Shown piece after piece: positions 7,320 to 46,857 of a stretch of DNA of 64,000 nucleotides. Source of the DNA: an uncultured bacterium (lineage in GTDB: Bacteria; Cyanobacteriota; Vampirovibrionia; Gastranaerophilales; Gastranaerophilaceae); the NCBI GenBank assembly GCA_902763805.1, contig CACWTN010000001.1, positions 195,069 through 259,068 on the forward strand, written 5' to 3'. A program made the position numbers and the translations under genes. Under the pieces are notes generated by a model. The model made no database searches. It saw nothing but the letters and a program-made list of their open reading frames with translations, and was not told where the DNA came from. Each line of letters starts with the position of its first letter. Within the stretch, counting starts at the first letter, position 1.

Positions 7320-7321
7320 TA

Positions 7322-7346
7322 AAAAAAGGACTTTATAAGTCCTTTT
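7322..7346. terminator. Bidirectional terminator
   Basis: AAAAAGGACTT-TAT-AAGTCCTTTT forms a strong hairpin with A and T runs. On the plus strand it ends the deaminase gene; on the minus strand it would end the sigma-28 micro-unit starting near 7652. Confidence 0.85.
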
Positions 7347-7364
7347 ATGATAAATGTATATTTT

Positions 7365-7436
7365 TGAGTCTTATAGGGTTATGACTCATTTTATCGCCCG
7401 GAGAATTTTCTCCGTTTAGCATAGTCACCCCTGCAC
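7365..7436 (-). other. Structured 3' region with mutually exclusive pairings
   Basis: Downstream of the 48-residue ORF the transcript can form a closed arm in which GGGGTGACT (7423-7431) pairs with AGTCATAACCC (7376-7386), enclosing a hairpin CGGAGAAAATTCTCCG (7399-7414). The same AGTCA segment can instead pair with GACTC at 7366-7370 (loop ATAACCCTATAA). Nothing here matches a riboswitch I know. Together with the ORF and terminator this fills the stretch 7320-7606. Confidence 0.4.
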
Positions 7437-7458
7437 ATAGAGAAACTGTTTTGCTGAT

Positions 7459-7605
7459 TTATACAGCGACTTCTTCTTTGAAATAGTTGACAACTGTATC
7501 CATAACATTGTCAAAGAAGAAGTCCAATTCTACTGATAACGAATCGTTTATATCCACTTTTTCCGTTTTATTAAATCTCGCTGTCATTTCGTTTTCTATA
7601 TTCAT
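7459..7605 (-). CDS. Small 48-residue protein under a sigma-28 type promoter
   Basis: An acidic micro-protein (begins MNIENEMTARFNKTEKVDIN, ends VVNYFKEEVAV) with a ribosome site AAAGGATTAGGAA before the ATG. No signal peptide; the second half (LDFFFDNVMDTVVNYF) could form an amphipathic helix. A sequence matching the FliA/sigma-28 consensus lies 54-80 nt upstream, so it is probably expressed with late flagellar genes. It is too short and too unlike FlgM for me to call it an anti-sigma factor, though that or a small flagellar accessory role is possible. Too short for routine gene calling, but the promoter, ribosome site and terminator all agree. Confidence 0.6.
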   Translation of the reverse strand: MNIENEMTARFNKTEKVDINDSLSVELDFFFDNVMDTVVNYFKEEVAV

Positions 7606-7658
7606 TTCCTAATCCTTTCTTATGCTCTGCCCTGGTTACTTTTCTTGTTACAATTTTT

Positions 7659-7685
7659 ATATCGGCAATTTTTTATAAAACTTTA
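7659..7685 (-). promoter_or_regulatory. Sigma-28 (FliA) promoter
   Basis: On the minus strand TAAAGTTT (7678-7685), an 11-nt spacer and GCCGATAT (7659-7666) match the flagellar sigma-28 consensus TAAAGTTT-N11-GCCGATAA at 15 of 16 positions. A FliA/WhiG sigma factor gene lies at 22932 and the fliFGHI operon at the right end of the window. Transcription would start near 7652 toward the 48-residue ORF. Confidence 0.75.
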
Positions 7686-22931: not shown

Positions 22932-23750
22932 ATGGATCAGGATACTTCATCTTATAACAAAATAAAACGTGTAACGAATGAAGAACTTGCCGAAATGTGG
23001 CAAAAGTATTTTGATGACCACGATAACAAAGAGTATCGTGATGCTCTCATCCTGCAATACATTTATCTGACCAAATACGTTGTCGGAAGGGTTAAAGTAT
23101 CTCTGCCGCCGACTTTTTCATTTGAAGATATTTCATCTTACGGTGTAGAAGGCTTAATTGATGCCGTTGAAAAATTTTCACCGAAGATGGGTGCAAGATT
23201 TGAAACTTATGCTCTTGTCCGCATAAGAGGTAACATTATTGATAAAATCCGTTCACAGGATTTTCTTCCGAGAAGCGTCAGAAGAAAAATTAAAGACGTT
23301 AAAGAAGCTCAGGAAACACTGAAAGCTAAATTCGGACGCACAGCAACCAACAGCGAAATCGCAAACTATCTGGGTATTGAAAGAGAAAAAGTTGAACAAC
23401 TTTTGTCTGATGACACGACCGTAACATCAATATATGAAAAGAAAGGTTCATCTGACGGTGATATCGAGATTATTGATACCATTCAGGATTCACACGCACT
23501 TACTCCGCACGATGAACTTGAAGAAAAGGATGTAAAAAAAGAGTTGGAGGCGGCTTTGAAAAGATTACCCGAAAGAGAAAGAACAATAATGGTTCTTTAC
23601 TACCACGAAAACATGACTTTAAAAGAAATCGGTGAAACTATAAATGTTTCCGAGTCCAGAATCTCTCAACTCCATGCACAGGCTATTATGAAGCTTAAAA
23701 ATCTGCTGAGCGAAAACCGCTCCGAAAGACTGAAAAGAAGCATCATTTAA
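22932..23750 (+). CDS. fliA: RNA polymerase sigma factor FliA/WhiG (sigma-28) family
   Basis: A 272-residue sigma factor with regions 2, 3 and 4. Region 2 includes YVVGRVKVSLPP, FEDISSYGVEGLIDAVEKF and ARFETYALVRIRGNIIDKIR, and DFLPRSVRRK at the 2.4/3.0 border is characteristic of FliA/WhiG. Region 4 is LPERERTIMVLYYHENMTLK followed by EIGETINVSESRISQLHAQA. It should transcribe late flagellar and chemotaxis genes; a matching promoter is seen at 7659-7685. GGAAGAGAGGG precedes the ATG. No FlgM anti-sigma gene is adjacent. Confidence 0.92.
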   Translation: MDQDTSSYNKIKRVTNEELAEMWQKYFDDHDNKEYRDALILQYIYLTKYVVGRVKVSLPPTFSFEDISSYGVEGLIDAVEKFSPKMGARFETYALVRIRGNIIDKIRSQDFLPRSVRRKIKDVKEAQETLKAKFGRTATNSEIANYLGIEREKVEQLLSDDTTVTSIYEKKGSSDGDIEIIDTIQDSHALTPHDELEEKDVKKELEAALKRLPERERTIMVLYYHENMTLKEIGETINVSESRISQLHAQAIMKLKNLLSENRSERLKRSII

Positions 23751-44787: not shown

Positions 44788-46857
44788 TTAGTCGCCCATC
44801 ATCGGGTAAGCTCTTACTACTGTTACCGATCCGTCAACGTTCTTTCTGCAAGGAACTTCGTCTTCATCATCTAAGTCTGCTGCGTATGCTACCGGGGTGT
44901 TAACCAGTGGTTTTGTCGGATCATCCGGAATGATAACCATTGTTCTTACGTTATCATCAGTCGGAGGATTTGGGTTATCCGGAGTTGGTTTCGGTTGCGG
45001 TTGCGGTTCCGGATCAGGAGTTTTTCCAGGACCGATTAAATATGTTGTCTTTTCTGCCGGTTTAAGTGTCGGCTGGTTATAATTACCGTCTGCCAATTCG
45101 TATGTGATTTTTTCATCAGGTTTAATTGTTACAACTTTTTCATCTTTGATGTTTGTATAGTTTGTTGTAAAATCTCTGCCTTCAAATTCAAGTTTCAGGT
45201 AATCTGTTTCAGGACCTACGTTGATGTTTTTAGCGTGTACGTTCGGACCCTGAACATCAATTCTTTTTCTGTATGCCGTGATATTAATATCACCTGCGTT
45301 AGCACCTGTTAATACTACATCACCGTTTGATGCTATGTATACCTGTGAATTTTGCGGTGCTTCAATATTTGTAATTGTTCCGCCTGCTATATTTGTATAT
45401 GCGTGGCTCTTAATGTCTTTCGGAATGTATGTGTAATTTTCCATTAAACTGATTACCTGTTCAGCTGTTGTATAAGTGTTTCCGTTTGCATCTGTGTAGT
45501 CTTTAAGACCACCGATGTAGCCGTTTGATTTAAAGCTGTATTCATTTGCAGTTAAAACTGCTTTATCATCGGTTAATACGTTTAATTTGTCAGATGCATA
45601 ATCAATTTTGTCTGCCTGTACATTTATTGTAGTCATTACGTGACCGTTATTTGCGTGAGCGGTTAACTTTCCGCCTACTTTTAAATTACCGTCTAATAAT
45701 TTACCTTCTTCAAAATCGTAGTTACCGATATGAATATTGTTTTCTGAGTTAATTGTCGCATTTCCTGCAACCTTTGTATCACCGCTTACGTGGACAAAAT
45801 GTTTATAACCAAGCTGATTTTCGGATTTTGCGGTTGTTTTAAGATTCATATCTTTACCGACGGTTGTGTTTCTGACTTCCAGAAAGCCGCCGCCGTTCTC
45901 CATGTTTAAATTGCCGTCAACGCTGGCAGTTCTTGCGTACATCATCGGACCGTTGCCTTCAACGTTTACGTCGCCTTTTACATTCAGTTTATTACCGTTA
46001 TCAACATAGTTAAGTGAAACGCTGCCGTCGGATTTAACATTTAAGTTTCCGTTAATCTGACCGCCGCCGACTGTTTTAACAATACCTTTGTCGGATTTAA
46101 TATAAACATTTCCGTCAACCTGTACTGCTTCCAGTCTTAATGCCTGAGTTTCCGTATATTTTTTTGTGCAGGTACCCTGACATGCTGTTTGGGTTATAAA
46201 ATAATCCTGACCGTTTGTTGTTGTAAATTTAACATCACCTGTTCCATTTTTGCCGACTTTAAATGCTGATTTTACAACGTTCATTGTCGGAGCCAGGAAG
46301 TTAAGCTCTCCGCCTACCGTGAAGTCTGAGTTTTTAACTGTTACTACGTAATCCTGACCGTTAGGAACATTTGCTCTTGTTGCTGTCGGGTCATAAGTTA
46401 CTGCACCTGTTACAGTATTTAAAGCTGCGCCCTGTGCGGTAATCATTGTGTCACCTGCTGTTGTAAATTTAGCACCGTCGAACAAAACACCGTTCGGGTT
46501 TGATATAATTAATTTTCCGATATTTGAGTTTGCGTTAATCTGACCGTAGATATTTGACATACCCTGATTAACTGTATTCAAGATAACCAATCCGTTAGTT
46601 CCGTCTGCACCGTTAAAGTTTAATGTTTCGTTAGCATTTACGTTTAACGTATTCCAGTTAACGTGAGTGTTTGCGTTAAAATTTAATGTTGCAGAACCCG
46701 GAGCGACATCAACACCCGTTAAACCTGCTGTTGCGTTATTAATAACCGCACCGCCGTTGCCAACACCCAGACCGGTGTCAATTGCAGCAGAAACCTGCAT
46801 CATTGCAAACATTGCTGTTAAAACTAATGCTGAAGCTTTTTTCTTGATGTTTTTCAT
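44788..46857 (-). CDS. Two-partner-secretion (TPS) domain exoprotein, filamentous-haemagglutinin-like
   Basis: The 689-residue protein has a signal peptide (KKKASALVLTAMFAMMQVSA), then a TPS domain (about 26-170) with the hallmark GKLIISNPNGVLFDGAKFTT and a preceding VNWNTLNVNANETLNFN. A beta-helix of degenerate repeats (GNLNVKSDGSVSLNYVDNG, KGDVNVEGNG, VDGNLNMENGG) fills 190-600. The tail has a proline-rich linker (PDPEPQPQPKPTPDNPNPPT). It should be exported through a TpsB/BamA-family pore, not present here, and act as adhesin or surface fibre. AGAGGAA precedes the ATG. Confidence 0.85.
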   Translation of the reverse strand: MKNIKKKASALVLTAMFAMMQVSAAIDTGLGVGNGGAVINNATAGLTGVDVAPGSATLNFNANTHVNWNTLNVNANETLNFNGADGTNGLVILNTVNQGMSNIYGQINANSNIGKLIISNPNGVLFDGAKFTTAGDTMITAQGAALNTVTGAVTYDPTATRANVPNGQDYVVTVKNSDFTVGGELNFLAPTMNVVKSAFKVGKNGTGDVKFTTTNGQDYFITQTACQGTCTKKYTETQALRLEAVQVDGNVYIKSDKGIVKTVGGGQINGNLNVKSDGSVSLNYVDNGNKLNVKGDVNVEGNGPMMYARTASVDGNLNMENGGGFLEVRNTTVGKDMNLKTTAKSENQLGYKHFVHVSGDTKVAGNATINSENNIHIGNYDFEEGKLLDGNLKVGGKLTAHANNGHVMTTINVQADKIDYASDKLNVLTDDKAVLTANEYSFKSNGYIGGLKDYTDANGNTYTTAEQVISLMENYTYIPKDIKSHAYTNIAGGTITNIEAPQNSQVYIASNGDVVLTGANAGDINITAYRKRIDVQGPNVHAKNINVGPETDYLKLEFEGRDFTTNYTNIKDEKVVTIKPDEKITYELADGNYNQPTLKPAEKTTYLIGPGKTPDPEPQPQPKPTPDNPNPPTDDNVRTMVIIPDDPTKPLVNTPVAYAADLDDEDEVPCRKNVDGSVTVVRAYPMMGD

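Follow-up and report, generated by a model that had tools for sequence, protein, structure and literature searches.

The DNA analysed here, a window of 64,000 nucleotides (nt) from an uncultured bacterium of the Gastranaerophilaceae (GenBank assembly GCA_902763805.1, contig CACWTN010000001.1, positions 195,069 to 259,068 of the forward strand), carries on its minus strand a short transcription unit with a sigma-28 promoter, a 48-codon open reading frame (ORF) and a 3' untranslated region (UTR) complementary to a putative small RNA (sRNA) encoded elsewhere in the same 1.96-Mb genome (G000). The order to which it belongs, Candidatus Gastranaerophilales, is flagellated in only part of its members (PMC4040986). 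Judging from the named contigs that bear the sRNA gene, G000 falls in a large genus of that order; genus counts below refer to genomes of this genus, and the selection, promoter and 3' UTR comparisons of the 48-codon gene to 30 genus loci; loci of related species are not independent, so these counts exceed the true number of events.

The promoter lies at 7659–7685, where a -35 element TAAAGTTT (7685–7678) is separated by an 11-nt spacer from a -10 element GCCGATAT (7666–7659); as a sequence-only reading of the window had claimed, TAAAGTTT-N11-GCCGATAT agrees with the FliA form TAAAGTTT-N11-GCCGATAA at 15 of 16 positions. It is kept at 30/30 genus loci as TAAAGTTT-N11-G[CT]CG[AT]TA, which would place the gene in the sigma-28 (FliA) regulon across the genus. 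The promoter in the window is not accidental, and the relaxed pattern TAAAGTTT-N9..13-CCGATA is found there once against 0.03 expected; the whole genome holds 29 occurrences (28 with an identical spacer length), whereas the reversed control pattern does not occur in it. Several of these precede flagellar ORFs, one of which encodes a protein that resembles FliD by eye; many of the other ORFs 3' of them are uncharacterised. A sigma factor of the FliA/WhiG family that would read the promoter is encoded in the window at 22932–23750 on the plus strand and scores above the NCBIfam cut-off (TIGR02479, 232.6 bits; cut-off 189.6). The companion flagellar genes had been named as fliFGHI; family models recognise FliG, FliH and FliI alongside FliA, whereas the ORF that precedes fliG and is presumably fliF lies in the window with its C-terminal part only. 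As a separate observation, the sigma-28 regulon of the genome (L034–L062) has no fewer than 29 promoters of near-identical sequence (TAAAGTTTT...GCCGATA); many of the ORFs that follow are uncharacterised, among them small ones of 42–66 residues that lack convincing family matches (L049, L057, L058).

The predicted ribosome-binding site GAAAGG is present at 7619–7614 (7614–7619, minus strand; GGAAAGG-type in 28/30 genus loci), as is the ORF at 7459–7605 on the same strand, with its ATG at 7605 and its stop codon at 7461–7459, encoding an alpha-helical small protein (MNIENEMTARFN...ELDFFFDNVMDTVVNYFKEEVAV). The ORF is carried by 33 of 34 genus genomes, the sole genome without a match (G021) being a fragmented assembly, versus 0/23 genomes outside the genus, and its codons are under purifying selection of the kind seen in protein-coding genes (ratio of nonsynonymous to synonymous change, pN/pS, 0.11). 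Where the retrieved flanks reach, its neighbours are dnaN (23/30) and the deaminase gene (19/30). The proposal of an undescribed sigma-28 unit holds to the extent of a conserved small protein and its promoter, both present in flagellated relatives.

That protein could itself be the whole point of the locus: in an ordinary sigma-28 small-protein gene the 48-residue product would be the function, for example as an anti-sigma factor in place of FlgM or as an assembly factor, with the 3' complementarity of minor importance. Genus-wide conservation at such a low pN/pS fits this explanation, as do the three helices predicted with moderate confidence (predicted local distance difference test, pLDDT, 76) and the search for FlgM (PF04316), which detected none in G000 and 56 relatives (57 genomes), the control genomes giving a clear signal and a divergent member being able to escape; with FlgM undetected there is room for another anti-sigma factor. 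However, the protein had no match in Pfam (and thus none to the FlgM family) or NCBIfam, the family searches gave no tie between it and sigma factors, and we found nothing beyond its promoter that links it to FliA. Moreover, the explanation does not account for an sRNA site that recurs in two other gene families and whose changes preserve pairing, and we consider it improbable.

At the far end of the unit an intrinsic terminator hairpin followed by a T-run lies at 7324–7346 (minus strand). It had been described as shared with the deaminase gene; the minus-strand hairpin (7346–7324) is clear, but the sharing is weak because the terminator is clear on that strand only. An RNA role had also been proposed, with a structured 3' end, and here the structure has to be given up: the hairpins of G000 (z-score -4) are not found in relatives, which removes the 3' UTR as a conserved structured RNA, and an Rfam search of this region matched nothing at the gathering score and gave chance matches only at a lax threshold. 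The RNA role survives in changed form, in that the 3' UTR contains a conserved predicted pairing site for a separate sRNA. This site, AAGACUCAAAAAUAUACAUUUAUC in the mRNA (7349–7372, minus strand), sets 24 nt against the single-stranded region of an sRNA at C1:285033-285082 of G000, 26 kb past the window end. It is by far the window's best (-31 kcal/mol, versus -24.5 for the next), and in cofolding the duplex is favoured by 17.6–19.9 kcal/mol with the opening of both partners included. Strong sites are present in the 3' UTR of 28/30 genus transcripts of the gene (z-scores -3.6 to -8.2), and one genome (G001) has an extra site in the 5' UTR, directly 5' of the ribosome site and in the same antisense orientation.

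The second copy of the 3' UTR sequence, in opposite sense, is a small gene rather than a repeat; a 17-mer taken from the 3' UTR is present in no more than 1–3 copies per genus genome where found. The predicted sRNA is ~54 nt long; an unpaired stretch of ~24 nt (GUGGGGUAAAUGUAUAUUUUUGAGUC) leads into a terminator hairpin, and the sRNA gene reads TTGACA-N17/18-TATAAA and then GUGGGGUAAAUGUAUAUUUUUGAGUCUUGCA-loop-UGCAAGACUUUCCUUUU. Among the matches listed, 74 of 80 species-level contigs have a consensus-like sigma-70 promoter (TTGAC[A/T]-N17/18-TATAA[A/G]) before it. The neighbours of the gene vary, and an ACT-domain gene is downstream in 18/80 of these contigs among the matches listed, which rejects the element as a leader of that gene. 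A short peptide gene (AUGUAUAUUUUUGAGUC, read as MYIFES) is disfavoured by a change in the hairpin loop of L074 that disrupts the reading frame and by the terminator inside the supposed gene. With its own promoter, a short unpaired conserved stretch, an intrinsic terminator and no fixed neighbour gene, the element has the anatomy of a trans-encoded sRNA. A covariance model recovers it in 43/46 genus genomes (E<1e-13) and in 0/31 genomes outside the genus; Rfam searches matched the sRNA to no family, and no copies were found in viral contigs. Hfq (PF17209) was absent from the 19 genomes searched, in a search to which the control genomes responded and which a divergent Hfq could escape. Two further observations concern the same RNA. 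Its tail 3' of the hairpin, ACUUUCCUUUU, is a 7-bp complement to AGGAAAG, and the ribosome sites of the 48-codon gene are of the GGAAAGG type (L004–L033), making this a possible second contact. In addition, TTTACCCC, the complement of its GGGGUAAA, recurs in intergenic DNA of the genus (L024, L049 and others), sometimes as consecutive copies that may be further sites for the sRNA.

Comparable sites occur in other flagellar transcripts. A gene of ~81 codons, present in 42/44 genus genomes, has an sRNA site at its stop codon in 26/26 parsed loci (-25.8 to -36.1 kcal/mol), and in all but one of the same 26 loci (25/26) a sigma-28-like promoter whose spacer is 11 nt lies 40–59 nt before the start codon. 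Its site is commonly split in two, GACTCAAAAATATAC and TTACCCC being separated by a linker whose length varies. The second block, as TACCC, is found no more than 60 nt from the stop codon at 13/30 loci of the 48-codon gene versus 3% of background 60-mers. The third carrier is the flagellin gene that ends the array, which has a site 3' of it in seven loci and in G005 (at least eight species). The flagellin-like gene sets are themselves large, with ~8–20 matches per genome in tandem arrays (e.g., G000:C4:45228-49532, and across the genus). As a feature of all sigma-28 operons the sRNA site was rejected, as it is not found throughout.

The complementarity goes beyond chance and is conserved in the manner of trans-acting sRNAs. 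In a background set of 592 kb of same-order DNA, searched on both strands, only five sites reached -24 kcal/mol or lower, the sRNA's own antisense apart, and one of these five is the 3' UTR of a 48-codon gene (L211). Within the 15-nt core, 25/38 substitutions (14/24 distinct ones) turn an A-U or G-C pair into G-U, compared to 21% in background near-matches, a pattern that suggests selection for pairing. A target search of G000 allowing three mismatches was without excess (23 versus 29 in the control), and matches with 0–2 mismatches alone were therefore used. These data also bear on the idea that what the loci share is a motif in the DNA or a short repeat, such as a protein-binding site or mobile element, and does not act through RNA pairing. 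While a 22-nt exact match at two loci could stem from the spread of a repeat, changes that run mainly to G-U pairs are not expected of a DNA motif; furthermore, in all three gene families it is the transcribed strand sense of the target copies that can pair with the sRNA, these copies lack its hairpin and diverge as two blocks whose linker differs in length, and exact copies number no more than 1–3 per genome where present. We regard this idea as very improbable.

On balance we lean towards a trans-acting sRNA that would pair with the 3' UTRs of sigma-28 flagellar mRNAs, mark late mRNAs for decay and so set a threshold for sigma-28. The sRNA would be transcribed from its own sigma-70 housekeeping promoter, and the sigma-28 late transcript would carry two conserved parts, the 48-residue helical protein and the 3' UTR pairing site. 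Base-pairing just 3' of the stop codons would mark the duplexed late mRNAs for decay, e.g., by RNase III, and late products would accumulate once sigma-28 transcription surpasses the threshold set by the sRNA. The sequences show the promoter, the conservation of the ORF, the anatomy of the sRNA gene and complementarity under selection; from these we infer the production of both RNAs, their pairing in vivo and the direction of the effect, and duplex-dependent decay is probably the route by which the sRNA acts. Action of the sRNA on the late mRNAs is favoured because its promoter is a near-consensus housekeeping one, because nearly every species has the site in these particular genes, and because the second site of G001 abuts the ribosome site. 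A bolder version, a bacterial counterpart to the control of regulons through 3' UTRs, is that a single Hfq-independent, ultraconserved sRNA reads a bipartite 3' UTR code shared by several late flagellar mRNAs and that this RNA checkpoint partly replaces FlgM in a lineage where FlgM went undetected; it seems to us rather doubtful.

Several observations weigh against control of the late mRNAs by the sRNA. One 48-codon locus is without a site (L031/G032) and another has only a weak one (L014/G030), and most sigma-28 operons of G000 have none. The sRNA's GAGUC is in the terminator stem, hence pairing needs strand invasion. As the 5' part of the sRNA is invariant, two-sided covariation cannot be demonstrated. 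Finally, the position of the site ranges from the stop codon to more than 80 nt away, and once to the 5' UTR, which would equally suit a sponge: with sigma-28 active, abundant sites in the late mRNAs would titrate or destroy the sRNA and thereby free its targets, whether non-flagellar or early flagellar. The long, near-perfect complementarity points the same way, as do the several unrelated sigma-28 transcripts, flagellin included, that carry a site, and the pairing that invades the base of the sRNA's terminator stem. Conserved sRNA targets at ribosome sites, however, were not found (a genome-wide search was not made), and a dedicated site in two particular genes in nearly all species exceeds what titration needs. 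A sponge is possible, though we think it unlikely; it ranks close behind direct control by the sRNA because the position of the site is free and its carriers differ.

Elsewhere in the window, the ORF at 44788–46857 (minus strand) encodes a protein whose N-terminal half resembles, by eye, the haemagglutination-activity domain of two-partner secretion.

Flagellar genes are also acted on by the E. coli sigma-28-dependent sRNAs UhpU, MotR, FliX and FlgO (PMC10578931). In common with the present case, these form a post-transcriptional flagellar layer with RNA parts in the UTRs of sigma-28 transcripts and flagellin mRNA as a partner; in contrast, they are themselves sigma-28 products, are bound by Hfq and pair with fliC and ribosomal genes inside the coding sequence (PMC10578931). 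The sRNA described here has a sigma-70-type promoter and is antisense to the 3' UTRs of sigma-28 mRNAs, in a group where Hfq was not found in 19 genomes. The motif of the cyanobacterial sRNAs Yfr1 and Yfr2 differs from its own. These sister-lineage sRNAs are similar in being short and widely conserved and in having a conserved motif (PMC6778093). Campylobacter CJnc230 (FlmE) and CJnc170 (FlmR) also tune the flagellar hierarchy outside enterobacteria (PMC11187230), but they differ from the present sRNA in sequence, origin and targets. Trans-encoded sRNAs that act on an mRNA 3' UTR are represented by Spot 42 on hilD, where the effect is positive and Hfq-dependent (PMC5991649), and by RsaI on icaR (reviewed in PMC7821165). 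Each of those is described for one such 3' UTR, whereas here several mRNAs of one regulon are involved, with long complementarity.

A description of the present circuit was not found in the searchable literature, and the flagellar sRNAs so far described, as far as we found, are from proteobacteria and Campylobacter. A single sRNA whose 3' UTR sites are conserved in several mRNAs of a regulon appears to be uncommon. The putative circuit would be a genus-wide RNA circuit in non-photosynthetic, animal-gut relatives of the cyanobacteria, where both FlgM and Hfq went undetected in our searches, and it supplies concrete partners, sites and mutations with which the timing of motility in these bacteria may be tested.
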